Assembly: GCF_001423845.1 (NCBI RefSeq)
Contig: NZ_LMPM01000001.1
Coordinates: forward strand, 2,406,153-2,470,152
Source: Sphingomonas sp. Leaf357
GTDB taxonomy: Bacteria; Pseudomonadota; Alphaproteobacteria; Sphingomonadales; Sphingomonadaceae
DNA length: 64,000 bases
Direction of reading: 5' to 3'
Shown: positions 43,075 through 53,632 of the stretch, piece after piece
Position numbering within the stretch: position 1 is the first letter of the stretch
Layout: every line of letters begins with the position of its first letter
Notes under the pieces: model-generated
What the model was told of the DNA's origin: nothing
Databases searched by the model: none
What the model saw: the letters and a program-made list of their open reading frames with translations, nothing else
Program-made: the position numbers and the translations under genes

Positions 43075-43572
43075 ATGATGATCGCAATATTCGCCCCCCT
43101 GCTGCTCGCCGCAGCCGCCGCTCCGCCGCCGCGCGCCGCCGACGGGCAGTGCCATGCCGGTGTCGCGAACGAGATCGCAGTGCGCATCACCGGCTTTCGC
43201 AGCCGGGCGGGGCAGGTGCGCGTGCGGCTGTTCGGTGGCGCGACCTCGACGTATTTCGACAAGAAGCAGGCATTGGTGCGGATCGAGCGTCCCGTGCCGG
43301 CGAGCGGCGCGGTGACGATCTGCGTCGTCGCGCCGAAACCCGGCACCTATGCGATCGACGTGCGCCACGACGAGAACGGCAACGGCAAGACCGATCGGGC
43401 GGATGGCGGCGGCACGTCTGGCAATCCGCGCCTCAGCCTGTTCGACGTGCTGCTGTCCCGCAAACCGGCGCCCGAGAAGGTGCAATTCTCCGTCGGGGCC
43501 GGGACCACGATCGTCCCGGTCACGCTGATGTATCTCGATGGGGGATCGTTCCGTCCGATACGGGGCGATTGA
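43075..43572 (+). CDS. DUF2141-type exported protein
   Basis: This is a 165-aa protein with a signal peptide (MMIAIFAPLLLAAAAAPPPR). A single Ig-like beta domain follows, with VRITGFRSRAGQVRVRLFGG and the family's DVRHDENGNGKTDRADGG motif, an acidic loop likely to bind a cation. DUF2141 proteins are common periplasmic proteins of unknown role. It lies upstream of the kinase-flippase genes. Confidence 0.82.
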   Translation: MMIAIFAPLLLAAAAAPPPRAADGQCHAGVANEIAVRITGFRSRAGQVRVRLFGGATSTYFDKKQALVRIERPVPASGAVTICVVAPKPGTYAIDVRHDENGNGKTDRADGGGTSGNPRLSLFDVLLSRKPAPEKVQFSVGAGTTIVPVTLMYLDGGSFRPIRGD

Positions 43573-43603
43573 CGCCACAAGCGAGCGCGGGCAGGGCTTG
43601 GGA

Positions 43604-44290
43604 ATGCTCGCTCCCCTGATCGCGATCGTCGGCTGCGACGGCTCCGGCAAATCGACGCTCGCGACCGACATGGCGGGCGTCCTTGGCCGGGACCGGCCGG
43701 TGCGGCTCGCCTATCTCGGCCTCGGATCGGGGGCGATCGGCGCGCGGATCAAGCGCTGGCCGCTGATCGGCGTGGCCGCAGAAGCCGCGCTCGCCAAGCG
43801 CGGCACGAAGGCGAGGACAAAAGGGGAAAAGATACCCGGCCTCGCTACCGCTATCGTCATTTATGGTTTTTCGCTGCTCAGGCGGCGGCGCTTCCGCCGA
43901 GTGCTGGCGCTGCGGCAGCGGGGGGTGACGGTGATCACCGATCGCTACCCGCAGATCGAAGTGCCCGGATTCTACGATGGCCCCGGCCTGTCCGCCGCGC
44001 GTGCCGGCAGCAGCCTCGTCGCATGGCTCGCCGCGCGCGAACTCGCGATGTATCAATGGATGGCGAGCTACCGTCCGACGCTTGTGCTGCGCCTCGATAT
44101 CGACGCTGAGACCGCCCATGCCCGCAAGCCCGATCACGAGATCGGCTTGTTGCGGCAGAAGGTTGCGGTGACCCCCTCGCTCCGGTTCGGCGGCGCACCG
44201 ATCGTCGACCTCGATTCCCGCGCGCCTTATGAGGAGATGCGACGCCGTGCGCTGGCCGGCATCCTGCCGGTGCTGGATCGAGTGGCGTGA
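43604..44290 (+). CDS. Thymidylate kinase-like P-loop protein (paralogue 1)
   Basis: This 228-aa P-loop kinase has the Walker A sequence GCDGSGKS near residue 11 (MLAPLIAIVGCDGSGKSTLA). A later DRY segment is TVITDRYPQIEVPGFYDGP. The RLDIDAETAHARKPDHE motif resembles thymidylate kinase ends. Unlike a housekeeping Tmk, it sits in an envelope-type cluster with a paralogue 3 codons away, so the substrate may be a nucleotide sugar or lipid precursor. The start is ATG 43604. Its stop overlaps the next GTG. Confidence 0.75.
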   Translation: MLAPLIAIVGCDGSGKSTLATDMAGVLGRDRPVRLAYLGLGSGAIGARIKRWPLIGVAAEAALAKRGTKARTKGEKIPGLATAIVIYGFSLLRRRRFRRVLALRQRGVTVITDRYPQIEVPGFYDGPGLSAARAGSSLVAWLAARELAMYQWMASYRPTLVLRLDIDAETAHARKPDHEIGLLRQKVAVTPSLRFGGAPIVDLDSRAPYEEMRRRALAGILPVLDRVA

Positions 44291-44970
44291 CCGGAGAGGC
44301 GCTGGCGCCGTTGATCGCGATCGTGGGGTCGGACGGATCGGGCAAGTCTACCGTAGGCGAGGCGTTGCTCGCCTGGCTCAACGAGAGCCGCCGGACCGAA
44401 CTCCACCATCTCGGCAAGCAGACGGGAAATATCGGTCGCGCCATCGCGCGCTGGCCGATCGTCGGCCAGCGGCTTGACAAAACGATCGTCAGGAAATCCG
44501 GTGGCGCTCGGGATCCGAAGGGGCCGGGGGCGTTCACGGCGTTGGTCATCTACCTGTTCTCGATGCGCCGGGTCCGGCGGTTCAAGCGGATGCTGGCCGA
44601 CCGACGACGCGGCATCACGATCCTGGCCGATCGCTTTCCGCAGACCGCGGTGCCGGGGCCGATGGACGGGCTGGGCCTCGCCAAGGCGCGTTCGAGCGGG
44701 TTCCAGGGCATGCTCGCGCGGCGCGAACGCCGGCATTACGAATGGATGGAGGCGTATCGCCCTACGCTCGTCATCCGCCTCAACGTCGATCTCGCGACCG
44801 CATTGGCGCGCAAGCCCGATCATCGCCCGTCGTCGCTCAAGACCAAGATCGAGGATGTACCGCGGCTGACGTTCGACGGCGCGCCGATCGTCGATCTCGA
44901 TTCGACGCGGCCGCTGGAAGAGGTGATCGCCGACGCCAAGGCGGCGATCCTGCGCGTTCTGAACCCGTGA
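44287..44970 (+). CDS. Thymidylate kinase-like P-loop protein (paralogue 2)
   Basis: This is a tandem paralogue of the preceding gene, 227 aa, with Walker A GSDGSGKS (in LAPLIAIVGSDGSGKSTVGE). It has the same TILADRFPQTAVPGPMDGLG and RLNVDLATALARKPDHRPSS segments. The GTG start overlaps the stop of paralogue 1. It was probably made by local duplication and diverged to a different partner or substrate. The two could work as a pair in one pathway. Confidence 0.75.
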   Translation: MTGEALAPLIAIVGSDGSGKSTVGEALLAWLNESRRTELHHLGKQTGNIGRAIARWPIVGQRLDKTIVRKSGGARDPKGPGAFTALVIYLFSMRRVRRFKRMLADRRRGITILADRFPQTAVPGPMDGLGLAKARSSGFQGMLARRERRHYEWMEAYRPTLVIRLNVDLATALARKPDHRPSSLKTKIEDVPRLTFDGAPIVDLDSTRPLEEVIADAKAAILRVLNP

Positions 44971-46301
44971 GGGCGTGGTTCGCCGACGGCGTGTTCCGCA
45001 CCGTGTTGCGCAACGCCGGGCTGCTCGGATCGGGCAAGCTGGTCGGGGCCGGGCTGGGGCTGGTCGCCTTGGCCTGTGCCGGACGTGGGCTGACCCCGAC
45101 CCTGTTCGGCGTGCTGATGATCATCCACACCTACGCCACCGGTGCGGGCGGGATCGTAAAGTTCCAGACCTGGCAATATATCGTCCGCCACGCGACCCCG
45201 GCGTTGCACCACGGCGACAACGACCGGGCGCGCGACGTGATCCGTTTCGCCTTCGGCCTCGATCTGGCGAGCGGCATCATCGGCATGGTGCTGGCGATGA
45301 TCCTGCTGCCGGTGCTGGCAGGCTATTTCGGCATCGGAGCCGAGTATCTGCCTTGGGCCATCGCCTATTGCACGCTCGTTCCCACGATGACCGAGGCGAC
45401 CGCCAGCGGATCGTTGCGCGTGCTCGATCGCTTCGATCTGATCGCCGCGCAACAGGTGGTCACGCCGTTTCTGCGCGGCGGAGGCGCGGCGATCGCCTAT
45501 TTCGCCGATCTCGGGCTGCCGGGCTTCATCATCGCCTGGTATGTCGCCGATCTGGCGGGCGATCTGGTGTTGTGGGGCTTCGCGGTGCGCGAATTGAAGC
45601 GGCGCGGCATGCTCGATGCGCTCCGGCCCGGCATGTTCGGCGTCGCGCGGCGCCTGCCGGAAGCGTGGAGCTTCGTGTGGACGACCAACGCCGCGCATTC
45701 GGTCTACGCCGCCTGGGGGCCGCTCAGCAATCTGGTGGTGGCGACGATCCTCGGGCCGGTCGCGGCCGGCCTTTACAAGATCGCCAGCACGCTGCTCGAT
45801 TCGGCGACCAAGCCGGCCGATCTGCTGCGGCGCGGATATTATCCGGAGATCATGCGGCTGGATCCCGCCAGTACGCGGCCGTGGCTGCTCGGCGTGCGGG
45901 CCGGTTTGCTGGCCGGCGGTGTTGGGCTGATCGTGGTGCTGGTGGTGGCGCTCGGCGGCAAGCCCGTGATCGCCTTCGCCTTCGGGCAGAAATATCTCGC
46001 AGCCTACGATCTGCTGCGGCTGATGGTATTCTCGCTGGCGATCCAGATGGCGACCTTTCCGCTCGAATCCCTGCTCTACATGGCCGGGCGTCAGCGCGCG
46101 GCGTTGGTGGCGCAGGTGGCCGCCGTTCTGATCTATTTCGCCTTGCTGGCGACGTTCACGCATTGGTTCGGGCTGAACGGGGCGGGGGTCGCCTTCCTGC
46201 TCGGCACGATCGCGGTGTCGTTGTGCATGCTGATACCCACGATCATCGCCTATCGCCAGCGCGACAGGATCGTCTGGCGACCGGATACGCCGAAGCCATG
46301 A
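44967..46301 (+). CDS. Wzx/MATE-like polysaccharide or lipid flippase
   Basis: The 444-aa membrane protein has about 12-14 hydrophobic helices and no soluble domain. It resembles flippases of the MOP superfamily that export lipid-linked glycans. For example, GSGKLVGAGLGLVALACAGR, IVRHATPALHHGDNDRARDV and LYKIASTLLDSATKPADL are visible. The GTG at 44967 overlaps the kinase-like gene stop. The location between kinase-like genes and a CHAD-like gene suggests export of a product that they help make. Confidence 0.75.
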   Translation: MRAWFADGVFRTVLRNAGLLGSGKLVGAGLGLVALACAGRGLTPTLFGVLMIIHTYATGAGGIVKFQTWQYIVRHATPALHHGDNDRARDVIRFAFGLDLASGIIGMVLAMILLPVLAGYFGIGAEYLPWAIAYCTLVPTMTEATASGSLRVLDRFDLIAAQQVVTPFLRGGGAAIAYFADLGLPGFIIAWYVADLAGDLVLWGFAVRELKRRGMLDALRPGMFGVARRLPEAWSFVWTTNAAHSVYAAWGPLSNLVVATILGPVAAGLYKIASTLLDSATKPADLLRRGYYPEIMRLDPASTRPWLLGVRAGLLAGGVGLIVVLVVALGGKPVIAFAFGQKYLAAYDLLRLMVFSLAIQMATFPLESLLYMAGRQRAALVAQVAAVLIYFALLATFTHWFGLNGAGVAFLLGTIAVSLCMLIPTIIAYRQRDRIVWRPDTPKP

Positions 46302-47113
46302 GGCATTTTTCCGCCGCCGATTGCGAGGCCTTGTTCGATGCCATCCTGGTCAACGACGTGGTCGATGCGATGGTCGAGTTGCCGCCGTCGATCCGGGTCG
46401 ATTATCTGGCGGAACACCTCGCCGACGGCTTCGCGATCTCGCGGCAAGTGTGGCGCGAAGGCTTCGATCGCGACGCTCTGATCGCCTTCATCGCGAAGCT
46501 CCGACGCGGCGAACCGATCACCGCCGACGACCAGATCTGGTTCAAGCATGTGCGCGCCAAGTTCAAGCATCTGCGCTTCGCGTTCGTGCTTTACGGTGCT
46601 GACCATCTCTGCCCGCGCATGTTCAAGTCGGTGACGACCAGCATGGGCCTGTTACAGGATGCGTTCCGCAACGGCCAGCGCGGTGCGACCGTACGGCAAT
46701 CGGCGATATTGCGGACGATGCTGTCGCGCCTGCCGCTGAAGCTGCTTGACCGCGAGGTCCATCACCTGAAGCACAGCGACGCGGCGGGTTTCCGCGAGTT
46801 TACGCTGGATCAGATCGCAGACCTGCGGGCAACGCTGGCGAAGCGCGAACTCACCGGGCACCGCTTCCACGCGGCCCGCAAGATCGTCAGCCGCCAGGTG
46901 TCGTTCCATGACGACATGCGCATCATCCACCCCGCGCACGAGCACGTGGTGCTGTCGCGGTATATGAGCGCGATCAACGGGCTGATGGGCGCCTTCCATG
47001 ACCAACTCGTGCTGCGCGCGGGCCACGGGGAACTGGACTACGCCCACGGCACGTTCGCGATGCCCGAGGATATCCGCGCCCGGCTGGAGGCGCTCGTCGC
47101 GCGGTATACTTAG
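46298..47113 (+). CDS. CHAD-like helical protein (tentative)
   Basis: This 271-aa protein is all helical and lacks known motifs. Its two halves look related to each other and to CHAD domains: HVRAKFKHLRFAFVLYG (residues 84-100) then MGLLQDAFRNGQ; and HRFHAARKIVSRQVSFHDDM then LMGAFHDQLVLR. CHAD domains bind polyanions such as polyphosphate. The similarity is by eye and may be false. The ATG overlaps the flippase stop by 4 bp, so it belongs to the same operon. Its stop overlaps the converging glycosyltransferase stop. Confidence 0.5.
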   Translation: MRHFSAADCEALFDAILVNDVVDAMVELPPSIRVDYLAEHLADGFAISRQVWREGFDRDALIAFIAKLRRGEPITADDQIWFKHVRAKFKHLRFAFVLYGADHLCPRMFKSVTTSMGLLQDAFRNGQRGATVRQSAILRTMLSRLPLKLLDREVHHLKHSDAAGFREFTLDQIADLRATLAKRELTGHRFHAARKIVSRQVSFHDDMRIIHPAHEHVVLSRYMSAINGLMGAFHDQLVLRAGHGELDYAHGTFAMPEDIRARLEALVARYT

Positions 47114-48609
47114 GGTTTCGGTGCCAGCAATTCGCTGCCGCCCGACGCGTAGACGGTGCGGTAATGGGCGCGGATGATCGGAATCAGCAGATTTTGCTGC
47201 CAGCCGGGATTGTCGCTGCGCATCTGGATCATCGCGAAATGGCTCCGATCGAGCGTGGGGACCAGCGCGTCGCCATCGCCTTTCAACAGGCGTTGCTTGA
47301 CCGAGAAGAAATCGATCCCGCTTTGCCGCCCGGCCCAATAGCAGATCGCCTGATCGTCGCACGCGACCGGACCGGGGGCCGCGGCGATGGCGGCGATGAA
47401 CGGCCGCGCTTGGCGCACGGCATCGTCGCGGCCGGTGATCTCGCTGATCGTCTTGGTCGCCGCCATCGGCACCAGGCACAGTGCCGGGAGCGCCGTGATC
47501 GCCAGCCAGCGATATGGCCCGTCCGGTCGGAGCGCGCAGGCGACCGGCACCGCGATCGCCAGCGCGATGATGCTTTCGAAGAACGCGTTCACGTCGACGC
47601 CGGACCCCGATCGCTGGACGATGCCGAGCGGAATCGAGACCGCGAGCAAGAACAGGGGCAGGGCAAGCCGCGCGTCACTTCGCAACCGCATCGTCAGCGG
47701 GCGGCAAGCCAGCAGCACCGGTAGCATCAGGAGCAGCAGCGGACCGCCCTTGGCCGTCATGCGCGCGAGCGAATAACCGCGCGCCGGCGACAGCACGTCG
47801 ATGAAAACGTCCGGACCCCAGATCGCGAACAAGGCGAGCGCGGCAATCGCGGCGAACAGCGCGCCGGTGACGATCCATGCTACGAGCGCCCGACGATCGG
47901 CCCACCACAGCCACAGTGTGATCGCGATGGGAAAGGCGACGAGGTTGTGCTTGATCAGTCCCCCCGCGACGATCAGCGCGGCCGCTGCGATCACCCGCCC
48001 GACGGCGATCCGCTTTCCGGCGTCGGATGGCAGCAGCAATACCAGCGCCCAGCTCATCGCTGCTTGCCCCAGCCATTGCGGATCGTTGATTGCCAGATAC
48101 GCCCGCAGCAACGTCACCGAGTATCCCGCGAAGAGCAACAGGCCGATCGCTGCCCAGCGCGCATCCGCAAACCGTCGCACGACGACGTAGATCGCCAGCC
48201 CATTGGCGACCTGGGCAAGCAGCGCGATCACTCGCCCGGCGATGATGATGTCCCCGAACAGCCATCCCGCCGCGCCTATCAGGTAAAAGGATAACGGCGG
48301 ATAATTGTTTGCCGTAAGGGCGTCATGATGTGGATAGAGCGTACCGGCACCCATCGCGCGTACCGCCTGCCCGGCATTCCAGCCCTCGTTGACGTTGAGC
48401 GCGGCCTGCGCCGGCAACCACCACAAATGCCCCAGTGCCAACAGGCCGACCACCGCGATAGCGGCAGTCCGCCAAGCCGTATGTCGTGTGCCCCGGTCCA
48501 CCCATGCCCCTATCGTCAAAGTAATGCGCCGATCACGATCGGTACACCGACCACTCGATACGTCGTCTCGTGCCCTGATGTCGTCACGGAATTGACGCAT
48601 ATCTCTCAT
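47110..48609 (-). CDS. ArnT/GT39-like membrane glycosyltransferase
   Basis: This 499-aa integral membrane protein resembles dolichyl-phosphate-mannose or undecaprenyl-phosphate-aminoarabinose transferases. Its first periplasmic loop NVNEGWNAGQAVRAMG holds the acidic residues of the donor/acceptor site, followed by TANNYPPLSFYLIGAAGWLF. There are about ten further helices and a C-terminal periplasmic part with CDDQAICYWAGRQ. It probably transfers a sugar from a polyprenyl-phosphate donor to a lipid or glycan. The 48609 start is the longest; 48600 is an alternative. It runs toward the CHAD-like gene. Confidence 0.75.
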   Translation of the reverse strand: MRDMRQFRDDIRARDDVSSGRCTDRDRRITLTIGAWVDRGTRHTAWRTAAIAVVGLLALGHLWWLPAQAALNVNEGWNAGQAVRAMGAGTLYPHHDALTANNYPPLSFYLIGAAGWLFGDIIIAGRVIALLAQVANGLAIYVVVRRFADARWAAIGLLLFAGYSVTLLRAYLAINDPQWLGQAAMSWALVLLLPSDAGKRIAVGRVIAAAALIVAGGLIKHNLVAFPIAITLWLWWADRRALVAWIVTGALFAAIAALALFAIWGPDVFIDVLSPARGYSLARMTAKGGPLLLLMLPVLLACRPLTMRLRSDARLALPLFLLAVSIPLGIVQRSGSGVDVNAFFESIIALAIAVPVACALRPDGPYRWLAITALPALCLVPMAATKTISEITGRDDAVRQARPFIAAIAAAPGPVACDDQAICYWAGRQSGIDFFSVKQRLLKGDGDALVPTLDRSHFAMIQMRSDNPGWQQNLLIPIIRAHYRTVYASGGSELLAPKP

Positions 48610-48722: not shown

Positions 48723-49772
48723 TTGAAACTCGATCAAGGTCAATTCGGTGCCGCCGCGCCGCTCAACCGGCTTGCCGATCCGGCCAGGGCCGAACCTCAG
48801 CGACGGGGCGTGTGCCGCCCGTGGCCGTCGCCGTTGCGTATCGCCACTCCGGCCGATGCCGAGGTTCGGATCGGGGTGATCCATAACGCTCGCGCGCGCC
48901 ATAACCTGTTGCGCGCCGCCCCGTTGTTCGTGGATGGCTGCGAACACGTCATGCCGCAGTCCCATGCCGAACTGGATGAAGCTTTGGCGGGGTTTTCGGC
49001 GCGTGGCGTAAACGCTCTGATCATCGACGGTGGCGACGGCACGGTACGCGACGTGATGTCGATCGCCTCGCGCCACTATTCCGGCGTATTTCCGCGCATC
49101 GCGATCGTGCCCTCGGGCAAGACCAACGCCCTCGCGCTCGACCTCGGCCTACCGAAGCATTGGACGGCGAAGGATGCTGTCGAAGCGATCCGGTTCGGCG
49201 GCATCAAGGAGCGCTCCCCGATCGAGGTCTGGCGCCCGGGTGCCGAGCAGGCCGAGTTGCGGGGCTTCATCTTCGGCGCTGGGGCCTTCGTGCGCGCAAC
49301 GGGTCTTGCCCAGACCACGCATCGCTTCGGTGCCTTCAACGGGATGGCGGTCGGCCTGTCGATCGCTGGCGCGGTGGCGCAGACGCTATTCGGCGGCCGC
49401 GACAACAGCTGGCGGCGGGGCGAGCCGATGCGCGTGGCGTCGGCCGACGGCACTGACGTGGACGGCGCACATTACATGCTGATCGGTTCGACGCTGGTAC
49501 ACATGCCGCTCAAGGTCCGCCCGTTCGGTGAGCCACGCGCGGGACTGAAGCTGCTGCGCGTCGAAGGATCGCCACGGAACATCATTTCGGCTCTGCCGGC
49601 GTTGCTGGGTGGTGGGCAGCCACGTTGGATGGCGCAATCCGGCTATCATCGCGAGGATTCCGAGCGGTTCGATCTGCGGCTGGACGGCGGCTTCATCCTC
49701 GATGGCGAGACGTTCGACGGTGGCGATCTCACGCTCCGTCAGGGTTGTCCGATGCGGTTCGTCGTTCCATGA
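48723..49772 (+). CDS. Diacylglycerol/ceramide kinase-family protein
   Basis: This lipid kinase family protein has the ATP-binding GGDGT motif (about residues 103-107 from the chosen start, in IIDGGDGTVRDVMS) and IVPSGKTNALALDLGL. It is close in type to ceramide kinase CpgB of Caulobacter as far as domains show. The start is uncertain: TTG 48723 is used here, TTG 48654 or GTG 48810 are alternatives, and the true N-terminus could be around TTG 48834. The gene heads a coupled trio. It would phosphorylate a lipid hydroxyl (DAG or ceramide). Confidence 0.75.
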   Translation: MKLDQGQFGAAAPLNRLADPARAEPQRRGVCRPWPSPLRIATPADAEVRIGVIHNARARHNLLRAAPLFVDGCEHVMPQSHAELDEALAGFSARGVNALIIDGGDGTVRDVMSIASRHYSGVFPRIAIVPSGKTNALALDLGLPKHWTAKDAVEAIRFGGIKERSPIEVWRPGAEQAELRGFIFGAGAFVRATGLAQTTHRFGAFNGMAVGLSIAGAVAQTLFGGRDNSWRRGEPMRVASADGTDVDGAHYMLIGSTLVHMPLKVRPFGEPRAGLKLLRVEGSPRNIISALPALLGGGQPRWMAQSGYHREDSERFDLRLDGGFILDGETFDGGDLTLRQGCPMRFVVP

Positions 49773-50683
49773 CGCCACGTCTGGCGCGGTTCGTCGCGCA
49801 AGAACTCGCCGCCCCGGTCCGCACGGAAATCCGCGCGGTCAGTGAAGCGGTTCGTGAGCGGTTGGGCGGTATCGCCGTGCTGTTCTACGGCTCGGCGTTG
49901 CGGACCGGCGACCTTGACGGCGTACTCGATTTCTACGTTCTGACCGAGCAGGCGAACGGGTCGTTGTTGAGGCGAACCGGCATGCGCTGGCTCTGGCCCG
50001 ATGTCAGCTTCCATGAAGTCGTCGTCGGCGGGCAGATGTTGCGCGCCAAGGTCGCGACGATGCCGTTGGCGACATTCGAACAGGCGACGCGCGGGTCGTT
50101 TGTAGATACGACGATCTGGACGCGCTTCGTGCAGCCTTCGGCACTGTTGTCCGTGCGCGATGCGCTGGTCGAACGGCGGGTGAAGCGGGCGGTGGCGGAT
50201 GCCGCGATCACCGCCGCGAGCTTTGCCGGCGTTCTGGGACCGGAGCGTGGCCCGGCGCGCGATTACTGGCTGGCATTGTTCCGCGAAACCTATCGTGCCG
50301 AAATGCGCGTCGAACCGCCGGGGCGCGAGCAGCAGATTCTGGTCTACGATCCGGCGCGCTACGACGCCTTGCTCCCGATCGCCTGGGAAGCGGGCGGCAT
50401 CGCCTTCGCCGATGACGGCGCGGCGCTCGCCCCGTTCATCGCGTTCGCGCCCTATCAGGCATTGGCCGAGGCTTGGCTGCTGCGCGTGAGGCTTGGCAAG
50501 GCGCTCAACATCGCTCGGCTGATCAAGGCGACGTTTACTTTCGAAGGTGCCGCACGCTACGGCTTGTGGAAGGTCCGGCGTCATACCGGGGTCGATGTCG
50601 CGCTGACGCCATGGCGTGAGCGGCATCCGGTGCTGGCCGCGCCCGGCGTCTTGTGGCGGGTGATGCGCACGCAATCCTCGTGA
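49769..50683 (+). CDS. Tam41-like nucleotidyltransferase (candidate lipid cytidylyltransferase)
   Basis: The 304-aa protein has the motif LFYGSALRTGDLDGVLDFYV (YGS at residues 40-42, LDF at 53-55). This matches the conserved core of mitochondrial CDP-diacylglycerol synthase Tam41. The next segments MLRAKVATMPLATFEQATRG, FVQPSALLSVRDAL and RETYRAEMRV follow the same order as in that family. The family uses CTP to make CDP-diacylglycerol from phosphatidic acid. Here the substrate could be phosphatidic acid or ceramide phosphate. The ATG overlaps the kinase stop. The match is by eye, without alignment. Confidence 0.65.
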   Translation: MTPRLARFVAQELAAPVRTEIRAVSEAVRERLGGIAVLFYGSALRTGDLDGVLDFYVLTEQANGSLLRRTGMRWLWPDVSFHEVVVGGQMLRAKVATMPLATFEQATRGSFVDTTIWTRFVQPSALLSVRDALVERRVKRAVADAAITAASFAGVLGPERGPARDYWLALFRETYRAEMRVEPPGREQQILVYDPARYDALLPIAWEAGGIAFADDGAALAPFIAFAPYQALAEAWLLRVRLGKALNIARLIKATFTFEGAARYGLWKVRRHTGVDVALTPWRERHPVLAAPGVLWRVMRTQSS

Positions 50684-51456
50684 GCCGGTCCGATGATCGG
50701 CGGAAAAGCTTCAACGCGTTGATCCTCGCCGGATCGCGCGGGGGCGTCGATCCGGTCGCGGAATATGCCGGCGTCGGCGACAAGGCGATGATCGAGATCG
50801 GCGGCCGCACGATGCTCGCACGGGTAGCCGACGCAGTACGCGGGGCAGGGGCCGTTCGCATCGTCGTCGTCGCGTCCGCCCCTGTCGTACGACGTCATGC
50901 CGAAGACCTCGGTCTCGAGGTGATCGATGCCGCCGCCGGCCCAAGCGCCAGCGCGGGTCGCGGTTTCGACCTGCTCGGTGCGCCGTTGTTGGTGACGACC
51001 GCCGATCATGCCTTGCTCGAATCGGACTGGGTAAATCGTTTTGTCGCCGACGTGCCGGGTGACGCCGATGTCGCGGTGCTGCTCGCGCGGCGGGACACGA
51101 TCGAACAGGCCGTGCCGGAGACCAGGCGAACCTACCTGCGATTCGCCGACGGGGCCTGGTCGGGCTGCAATCTCTTCTATCTCGCGACGCCCCGCGCGGC
51201 ATCCGCGATCACGCTGTGGCAATCGGTCGAGTCGGACCGCAAGCGGCCGTGGCGGATCGTGCGGCGACTGGGGCCAACGCTGTTGCTGCGCTATCTGCTT
51301 GGGCGGCTGACATTGGCCGCCGGGCTGGCGCAGATCGGCAAGCTGGCGGGCGTACGAGCAGCGATGGTGCCGAGCCCGTTCGGGCTGGCGGCGGTCGATG
51401 TCGACAAGCCCGCCGATCTGGATCTGGTGCGACGGTTGGTCGGCGACGCGCGCTGA
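50680..51456 (+). CDS. MobA-like NTP transferase
   Basis: This 258-aa protein is of the NTP_transf_3 type: the nucleotide-binding N-terminus LILAGSRGGVDPVAEYAGVG (lysine 35 in DKAMIEIGG), an acidic TTADHALLE loop and the C-terminal AAVDVDKPADLDLVRRLV. It would transfer a nucleotidyl group to a phosphorylated small molecule or sugar. The GTG at 50680 overlaps the Tam41-like stop. It ends the three-gene operon. A homologue lies in the Caulobacter cpg cluster by memory. The role here is inferred from the neighbours. Confidence 0.7.
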   Translation: MSRSDDRRKSFNALILAGSRGGVDPVAEYAGVGDKAMIEIGGRTMLARVADAVRGAGAVRIVVVASAPVVRRHAEDLGLEVIDAAAGPSASAGRGFDLLGAPLLVTTADHALLESDWVNRFVADVPGDADVAVLLARRDTIEQAVPETRRTYLRFADGAWSGCNLFYLATPRAASAITLWQSVESDRKRPWRIVRRLGPTLLLRYLLGRLTLAAGLAQIGKLAGVRAAMVPSPFGLAAVDVDKPADLDLVRRLVGDAR

Positions 51457-51502: not shown

Positions 51503-52516
51503 TTAGAACAGTGTCGTCAGCCCGTAGAACAATGCGCCGACCGCGGCCGAGGCCGGGATCGTGATGATCCAAGCCGTCACCACGCTGCGCGCCACGCCCC
51601 AGCGCACCGCCGAGGCTCGCCTGGCCGTTCCCGCACCGATGATCGCGCCGGTGATGGTGTGCGTGGTCGAGACCGGGATGCCCAGCGCCGAGGCGGAGAA
51701 CAGGATGATCGACCCGCTGAGCGAGGAACTGAACCCCTGGTGCTGCGACAGGCGGGTGATGCGCGATCCCATCGTCTCGATGATCTTCCAGCCGCCGGTC
51801 AGCGTGCCCAATGCGATCGCGATATAGCAGCTGATTGCCACCCAGTGCGGCACCTCGAAATCGCCGGTCAGATAGCCGGTCGAATAGAGCAGGACCGTAA
51901 TCAGCCCCATCGTCTTCTGCGCATCGTTCAGGCCGTGGCTGAGCGAATAGGCGGCGGACGACACGAGGTGCAGCGCGCGGAAGCTCTTCTCCGCGGTCCG
52001 CGCGGTGGCGCGGTGGAACATCCAGCTGGTGATCAGCATGATCAGCATCGCCAGGATCATGCCCAACGTCGGCGACAGCACGATCGCGATCAGCGTCTTG
52101 TTGAGGCCGGTCCATTTGATGCCGGTCAGCCCGGCATGCGCCACGCCAGACCCGATCAGCCCCCCGACCAGCGCGTGGCTGGACGAGGACGGAATGCCCT
52201 TGAGCCAGGTGACCACGTTCCAGAACATCGCGCCGACCAGCGCGCCGAAGATCACCGATGGCGTGACGAGATCCTTGTCGATCAGTCCCTTGCCGATCGT
52301 ATCGGCCACCGCGTGCAAAGCGGGGAAGGCGATCGTCAGGAAATAGGCCGCGAAGTTGAACACCGCCGCGAACGCCACGGCTTGGACCGGGCTCAGCAAG
52401 CGCGTCGCCACCACCGTTGCGATCGAATTCGCCGCATCGTGCAGCCCGTTCAGATAATCGAACGCCAGCGCCAGGGCGATCAGCGCGACGAGCAGCGGGA
52501 AGGCAAGTTCGTGCAT
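51503..52516 (-). CDS. pit: Inorganic phosphate transporter (Pit family)
   Basis: This is a low-affinity inorganic phosphate permease of the PiT family. The 337-aa integral membrane protein has the signature N-terminal FDYLNGLHDAANSIATVVAT and the second conserved copy YSLSHGLNDAQKTMGLITVL. A final segment is VRWGVARSVVTAWIITIPAS. About 8-10 transmembrane helices are predicted. It follows the NUDIX-DUF47 gene by 12 bp on the same strand; DUF47 proteins are the usual partners of Pit transporters. They probably form one operon. Confidence 0.93.
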   Translation of the reverse strand: MHELAFPLLVALIALALAFDYLNGLHDAANSIATVVATRLLSPVQAVAFAAVFNFAAYFLTIAFPALHAVADTIGKGLIDKDLVTPSVIFGALVGAMFWNVVTWLKGIPSSSSHALVGGLIGSGVAHAGLTGIKWTGLNKTLIAIVLSPTLGMILAMLIMLITSWMFHRATARTAEKSFRALHLVSSAAYSLSHGLNDAQKTMGLITVLLYSTGYLTGDFEVPHWVAISCYIAIALGTLTGGWKIIETMGSRITRLSQHQGFSSSLSGSIILFSASALGIPVSTTHTITGAIIGAGTARRASAVRWGVARSVVTAWIITIPASAAVGALFYGLTTLF

Positions 52517-52528
52517 GGTCCGGATCGA

Positions 52529-53632
52529 TCAGGAGTGATCGATGACGATGCCGTCGATCTGATTCGCGACATCCTCGAACGCATCGACGATCCGCTCCAG
52601 ATGCTTGTAGATCTCGCGATCGACGACGAATCTCAGCGTGTCGCTGGCCCCGAACTCCAGGAACGTCTTTTTCAGTCCGGCGGCGTGGATCTCGTCGGCA
52701 TGGCCTTCCATGCGCACCAGGCGTTCGGTCAGTTCGTGCAGGCGCGGGCCGTTGGCGCCGACATCGCGCAGCAGCGGCATCGCCTCGGCCATCACGCGCG
52801 CGGCATCCACGACGATGCCGGCCATGTCCTTCATCTCGGGCTGGAAGCTCTGCACCTCGTACAGGCCGATCGCGTTGACCGCGGCCTGCATCTCGTCGAT
52901 CGCATCGTCCATCGCGCCGATCAGATTGCTGATCGCGCCGCGATCGAACGGAGTCAGGAACGTCTTGCGCACGGTCTGCAGCACTTCGCGGGTGATCTCG
53001 TCGGCGTCGTTCTCGCGCTCGGTCACTTCGCGGATATGCTCGGCTGCGGCCGGCCCGCCGTCCAGCAACCGGGCGAGCGCATCGGCCGCCTTCGTCACCG
53101 TCGCGGCGTGCGCTTCGAACATTCCGAAGAAGTTACCGGTCTTGGGCAACAATCGCTGAAACCAGGCGAACATCGATCCTACCTTTGATTGGGTTACGGC
53201 TGCGGCCAGCCCGGTGCGCCGGGCGGCGGCCTTGAATTCGGAGGCGCCGAACGAGCGGATCAGATCGCGCAGATCCGGTTCTTCCACGGCGCCGGCCGCT
53301 TCGGCGAGCGTGAACCAGCGCCGCTCGCGCTGATCCTGCTCCTTCCATTTGGGAAATTCGCGGGTGACGGCGAGCGGGAAGACATCGACATCGATCATCA
53401 GCGACGCGCCGCTGCCGCGCTTCTTGCGATACCGATACGATCCGAGCGGCGTCGGGCAGACCGGCCCGGATACCCCGGCCTCTTCCTCCGCTTCCTGCAA
53501 CGCGGCCGCATGCGGTCCGAGGCCCGACATCAGGTTGCCCTTGGGAATCACCCACCGCTTCGTTTCGCGCGACGTGACGAGCAGGATGCGCACGCCGGAT
53601 TCGGCTGCGTTCCCTTCGGTGCGATACGGCAA
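52529..53632 (-). CDS. NUDIX hydrolase-DUF47 (PhoU-like) fusion protein
   Basis: One uninterrupted 367-aa frame joins two normally separate proteins. Residues 1-145 form a NUDIX hydrolase (WVIPKGNLMSGLG, then HAAALQEAEEEAGV), with catalytic glutamates E47, E50 and E51 but Leu in place of the first box Glu and Gln46 for Arg. Residues about 154-367 form a DUF47 PhoU-like domain (MFAWFQRLLPKTGNFFGMFE) that regulates Pit. An in-frame ATG at 53173 with AGGTAGGA just upstream would give DUF47 alone. It may be a true fusion or two overlapping products. It lies upstream of pit. Confidence 0.85.
   Translation of the reverse strand: MPYRTEGNAAESGVRILLVTSRETKRWVIPKGNLMSGLGPHAAALQEAEEEAGVSGPVCPTPLGSYRYRKKRGSGASLMIDVDVFPLAVTREFPKWKEQDQRERRWFTLAEAAGAVEEPDLRDLIRSFGASEFKAAARRTGLAAAVTQSKVGSMFAWFQRLLPKTGNFFGMFEAHAATVTKAADALARLLDGGPAAAEHIREVTERENDADEITREVLQTVRKTFLTPFDRGAISNLIGAMDDAIDEMQAAVNAIGLYEVQSFQPEMKDMAGIVVDAARVMAEAMPLLRDVGANGPRLHELTERLVRMEGHADEIHAAGLKKTFLEFGASDTLRFVVDREIYKHLERIVDAFEDVANQIDGIVIDHS

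Follow-up and report, generated by a model that had tools for sequence, protein, structure and literature searches.

How is ceramide-1-phosphate turned into an anionic sphingolipid? The step that leads from it to ceramide phosphoglycerate (CPG) is called unidentified in the legends to Fig. 5 of PMC12275187 and Fig. 1 of PMC13228409, and a trio of overlapping genes in Sphingomonas sp. Leaf357 suggests how this unexplained step of the CPG pathway might work. The trio lies in a stretch of 64,000 nucleotides (the window) within a 2.78-Mb contig of the 3.87-Mb genome. With moderate confidence, we read it as the core operon for placing a head group on ceramide phosphate, in which the middle protein, CpgC, would make cytidine diphosphate (CDP)-ceramide. 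If true, this would be a bacterial CDP-ceramide branch parallel to that of CDP-diacylglycerol (CDP-DAG). The locus is a further instance of the known CPG pathway; what is new relative to print is the Tam41-like predicted fold of CpgC, a two-block pattern of gene presence and an overlapping trio without cpgA and cpgD.

As the preliminary description had it, the locus consists of three co-directional open reading frames with 4-bp overlaps:

48723..49772, + strand: gene 1, cpgB ortholog, lipid (ceramide) kinase with DAGK_cat domain and GGDGT motif (PF00781, orthology)
49769..49772, + strand: ATGA shared by the cpgB stop and cpgC start codons (sequence; identical 4-bp overlap in Caulobacter vibrioides)
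49769..50683, + strand: gene 2, cpgC (CC_1161) ortholog, predicted Tam41-fold nucleotidyltransferase, 304 amino acids (orthology, model)
50680..50683, + strand: GTGA shared by the cpgC stop and gene 3 start codons (sequence)
50680..51456, + strand: gene 3, CC_1153 ortholog, NTP_transf_3 (MobA-like) nucleotidyltransferase, 258 amino acids (PF12804, orthology)

Guanine plus cytosine fractions at the three codon positions (0.68–0.74, 0.51–0.53 and 0.77–0.80) mark the trio as coding sequence, the third position being the richest. Nor is the arrangement a product of chance, because each protein has exactly one match in C. vibrioides, and in 56 of 58 loci (L005–L034 and L080–L107, two of them partial at contig edges; the exceptions are L030 and L033) cpgC is directly preceded by a cpgB gene in the same orientation. 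Gene 1 likely starts downstream of 48723, because the match to C. vibrioides CpgB begins only at residue 46; GTG at 48810 and TTG at 48834 are candidate later starts.

The Caulobacter genomes were located with the cpgD primer of PMC12275187 (two wobble positions), which gave 13 stretches, some of them non-Caulobacter. In C. vibrioides DSM 9893 (L067, G385), all three matches fall in one region of contig C14, where individual genes were named from the published order, the domains found and that primer. Gene order there agrees with that published in PMC11324152 (lptC2, CC_1167, flippase CC_1166, aasR, cerR, acpR, spt, cpgC, cpgB, cpgA, CC_1158, CC_1157, lptF2, lptG2, cerS, CC_1153, cpgD), and 4-bp overlaps occur at cpgA–cpgB and cpgB–cpgC. 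In Caulobacter, cpgB and cpgC are required for CPG, and cpgA and cpgD for CPG2, with CpgD making CDP-glycerate; the anionic sphingolipids aid the survival of Caulobacter without lipopolysaccharide (PMC12275187). Leaf357 shares with Caulobacter crescentus the cpgB, cpgC and CC_1153 orthologs and the 4-bp cpgB–cpgC overlap, but differs in that its CC_1153 ortholog forms an overlapping trio with cpgBC, in that spt is distant (at 1.98 Mb of the contig) and in that the CPG2 gene set is missing, as the genome has no cpgA match at 1e-6 and no cpgD match at 1e-25. The proposed link to Caulobacter cpgABC, which is said to have been reported originally by Zik et al. (2022), therefore holds for cpgB and cpgC, whereas gene 3 is the CC_1153 ortholog and none of cpgA, cpgB, cpgC or cpgD. 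The earlier suggestion of a route not described for this group has to be given up: PMC11324152 already contains the idea of a nucleoside diphosphate (NDP)-activated ceramide and reports that Sphingomonas wittichii and Zymomonas mobilis carry CPG orthologs, with CC_1159 (cpgA) missing from Z. mobilis. These two Sphingomonadales resemble Leaf357 in their scattered CPG genes, and Z. mobilis also in lacking cpgA, a likeness taken from the published description and not from compared loci; the Z. mobilis CC_1153 ortholog is termed moderate there (PMC11324152). The term CDP-ceramide had no mention in the literature searched, which covers few subscription journals.

Protein 1 matches DAGK_cat (PF00781, E 4.1e-11 in the Pfam search), contains GGDGT and lacks CxxxCxxC, in agreement with the description of CpgB as a DAGK catalytic domain with GGDG and without the CxxxCxxC motif (PMC10331486). 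Its sole C. vibrioides match is CpgB (CCNA_01218; 41% over residues 46–348, E 2.6e-63), and in the reverse search gene 1 was the best among four DAGK-type places in the Leaf357 genome. This orthology, together with the position beside cpgC, places protein 1 in CpgB and predicts that it is a ceramide kinase, the activity shown biochemically for CpgB (PMC10331486). Diacylglycerol (DAG), also offered as a substrate in the preliminary description, is made unlikely by this orthology and by the spt gene of the genome. A second phospholipid route, in which the trio would form phosphatidate and then CDP-DAG by way of the Tam41-like protein, could draw on the DAGK_cat domain and on the fact that Tam41 itself makes CDP-DAG (PMC7018664, PMC11646218). 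We regard this route as very improbable and rejected it, because the kinase is orthologous to a biochemically shown ceramide kinase and because the spt family and cpgC share a stretch in 17 of the 21 compared (the window and 20 others). Likewise, in a set of 80 genomes selected for having cpgC (68, cpgC-positive) or lacking it (12, cpgC-negative), spt passed a strict cut-off (E up to 1e-75) in 66 of the 68 and in all 12. The two misses are G334, where the spt-like gene next to cpgC is more divergent, and G441, which is fragmented.

Protein 2 is CpgC by full-length orthology (55% to C. vibrioides CpgC over residues 4–301, E 2.6e-82, a single match) and by its adjoining cpgB. Its structure model (predicted local distance difference test 91.6) has Tam41 as its top fold match, and a nucleotidyltransferase domain and a second domain are predicted in the Tam41 arrangement. 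The likeness to the CDP-DAG synthase Tam41/TAMM41 (PDB 6ig4, 6ig2 and 7ecd) extends over most of both domains and includes one invariant Asp and a basic C-terminus; CpgC differs in its 11–15% identity in the fold alignments, in having no PF09139 match listed and in being bacterial, with ceramide genes and a ceramide kinase gene as neighbours. Among protein 2 relatives, the invariant columns are Y40 G41 S42, D54, K94, W117, R119-F120 and Q122. The structures of Tam41 are reportedly those of Jiao 2019 and Kimura 2022. Profile searches gave a different picture: the PF09139 profile matched neither protein 2 nor C. vibrioides CpgC in the Pfam search, the only Pfam match of protein 2 was meaningless (Cecropin, E 0.069), NCBIfam gave none, and the CpgC profile found one weak nucleotidyltransferase match among PDB sequences (E 0.64). 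Because PF09139 is unmatched, we do not file protein 2 as a Tam41 member and limit the claim to its working like one. The earlier Tam41-like call thus stands by predicted fold and fails by profile, whereas the lipid kinase and nucleoside triphosphate (NTP) transferase calls were borne out by PF00781 with GGDGT and by PF12804. Phosphatidate cytidylyltransferase is the name that databases give to some protein 2 relatives (P0087, P0153), and the closest named relatives among the matches listed are Sphingomonas-type bacteria. In the family-level genomes, identity to Leaf357 CpgC divides its relatives into one group at about 49–56% and another at about 30–42%, which suggests two cpgC lineages within the family.

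Protein 3 matches NTP_transf_3 (PF12804, E 1.3e-14), a domain also found in C. vibrioides CC_1153, which is its single match in that genome (53%); it therefore belongs with CC_1153 by orthology and family. It has weak profile similarity to the CofC/FbiD 2-phospholactate or 3-phosphoglycerate guanylyltransferases (PMC8764529), and we rejected it as CofC because it scores 28 bits (E 1.5e-6) against a cut-off of 105 for TIGR03552; no CofC or FbiD structure was among the 50 fold matches listed, which does not speak against one further down. CpgD, the CTP:phosphoglycerate cytidylyltransferase (PMC12275187), is alike in being a nucleotidyltransferase of one and the same pathway, but was also rejected, as it forms a separate family with no match in the genome at 1e-25. 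Structure comparison puts the folds of GlmU, CobY, IspD and KdsB at about the same distance from protein 3; TTHA0179 (PDB 2dpw), an uncharacterised Thermus transferase, is about 30% identical. Many relatives in databases are named GTP:adenosylcobinamide-phosphate guanylyltransferase or CobY, which, given the link to cpgBC, is probably misannotation.

Relatives of protein 2 occur in 42 of 385 class-level and 46 of 59 family-level genomes. In the 80-genome set, CC_1153-like genes (E up to 1e-6) were present in all 68 cpgC-positive genomes and in none of the 12 cpgC-negative ones, with the matches being a contig-edge fragment only in G205 and fragments in G441. By contrast, cpgA (E below 1e-60) and cpgD (E up to 1e-25) were each found in 28 of the 68 and 1 of the 12, and their sets are identical (29 genomes, the lone cpgC-negative member being G403); four genomes had weak cpgA matches (best E 1e-7 to 5e-17), which we took to be other CDP-alcohol transferases. 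Fisher tests on co-occurrence, which ignore relatedness, gave 1.7e-14 and 1.9e-22. CC_1153-like genes thus accompany cpgC in 40 of 40 genomes without cpgA and cpgD, Leaf357 included, a two-block pattern that directs the testing of CC_1153 to such organisms. Three of the 58 loci (the window, L080 and L084) have the full trio with a CC_1153-like gene adjoining cpgC, as judged from flanks of at most 1.5 kb. Linkage of proteins 2 and 3 is probably common among close relatives, because, of the contig sizes listed (118 for relatives of protein 2 and 119 for those of protein 3), 25 are shared, ten of them below 6 kb; jittered sizes would give about 0.9 shared. One genome of the same genus (G012) has spt and lacks both cpgC and a CC_1153-like gene, and the module was therefore lost or gained within the genus.

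We infer that CDP-ceramide may be an intermediate, on the strength of the predicted fold and the order of steps. CpgC, as a peripheral Tam41-fold enzyme, would use cytidine triphosphate (CTP) and ceramide-1-phosphate to form CDP-ceramide; the CC_1153-type NTP transferase would activate a phosphorylated head-group unit, perhaps a small phospho-acid (phosphoglycerate, for instance), which is the weakest step; and a further transferase would then form the anionic sphingolipid. The product would carry a single unit (CPG itself or a near analogue); Leaf357, being without cpgA and cpgD, should stop there and make no CPG2. We see about an even chance that CpgC is a Tam41-type CTP:ceramide-1-phosphate cytidylyltransferase with CDP-ceramide as a natural liponucleotide of bacteria that make sphingolipids, and that CpgB, CpgC and the CC_1153-type protein form a core sufficient for a ceramide-phosphate lipid, to which CpgA and CpgD are an add-on for the second unit. 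The confident fold prediction reduces the gap between ceramide-1-phosphate and CPG to one assay. According to PMC11324152, CC_1161 has an InterPro domain found in CDP-DAG synthases and might make NDP-activated ceramide, the condensation involving an unknown partner.

Several observations weigh against this reading. The fold alone says nothing of substrate; among 131 aligned protein 2 relatives, PF09139 does not appear in the families listed (25 of 28); and hhalign of CpgC against a thin two-sequence, 115-column Tam41 profile gave non-significant E values of 0.44 and 0.15 (a comparison with the profile of the unrelated protein 3 was empty as well). Many CC_1153-like matches outside close relatives are 29–40% identical and may be paralogs, and the Pfam content of ten neighbours of CC_1153-like genes held no clear candidate for a CDP-ceramide:head-group transferase. 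Finally, deletion of CC_1153 in Caulobacter yields more CPG, loses CPG2 and accumulates ceramide (PMC11324152), which speaks against a core role for CC_1153. The role of CC_1153 is thus the least certain part, as its presence follows cpgC, yet the Caulobacter mutant keeps CPG. That phenotype favours the printed Caulobacter view, in which CC_1153, CpgA and CpgD together turn CPG into CPG2 and CpgC attaches glycerate to ceramide-1-phosphate through a different chemistry, a view that also accords with the mechanism of CpgC being called unidentified (PMC12275187, PMC13228409). We nonetheless think it unlikely, given the CC_1153-like genes in all 40 cpgC-positive genomes without cpgA and cpgD, the Tam41 fold predicted for CpgC, and the judgement that joining glycerate directly is energetically not very favourable (PMC11324152).

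A different head group would also be conceivable. In ten stretches picked for their sphingomonad CC_1153-like genes (window included), a CC_1167-like gene (PF04464-like, below cut-off) occurs in five and a HAD phosphatase in three. This, together with the four folds about equally near protein 3, would suit a sphingomonad core product with a non-glycerate head group, for which the CC_1153-like enzyme would activate a different phosphate compound and CC_1167-like, HAD and glycosyltransferase proteins would finish the lipid. Such a product seems quite improbable, as the Leaf357 genome has no CC_1167-like match and the core genes are orthologous to those of Caulobacter, a CPG maker. CC_1167 was termed probably unrelated in PMC11324152, which its placement near sphingomonad CC_1153-like genes contradicts; we rejected it as the missing universal transferase for Leaf357, with no match there and matches in 33 of 68 cpgC-positive (and 1 of 12 cpgC-negative) genomes. 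One stretch (L115) holds acyl-CoA dehydrogenase, enoyl-CoA hydratase, 3-hydroxyisobutyrate dehydrogenase-type and aldehyde dehydrogenase genes, and others hold a HAD phosphatase, glycosyltransferases and an iron-sulfur protein. A CC_1166-like flippase is present in 7 of the 10 stretches (L113, L115, L117–L119, L121 and L124).

The window has a similar gene upstream of the trio:

44742..46301, + strand: possible lipid flippase, distant CC_1166 relative (PF01943; 31% identity with the gene at the CC_1166 position of C. vibrioides, E 3e-51)

Its protein is 35% identical to flippases of two CPG clusters (L037 and L038), and the start of the reading frame is uncertain, as it opens inside the preceding gene. 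Lying 2.4 kb upstream, it may export the lipid product of the proposed core operon; we tie it to the trio tentatively, with a − strand gene in between. That gene (47110–48609) encodes a membrane protein with a near-cut-off match to PMT_2 (mannosyltransferase-type). The gene at 46298–47113 (271 amino acids) overlaps the flippase-like gene by 4 bp and has no Pfam match at 0.1. Further upstream, 43538–44290 and 44287–44970 are tandem overlapping P-loop kinase-like genes, mutually similar and with a GSDGSGKST-type motif; the first has no Pfam match over the cut-off, and the pair had no relatives near CPG genes in the 38 stretches compared. Downstream and convergent with the trio, on the − strand, are two genes that we take, from reading the sequence, to encode a Pit-type phosphate transporter (51503–52516) and a protein that combines Nudix-like with PhoU-like parts (52529–53632).
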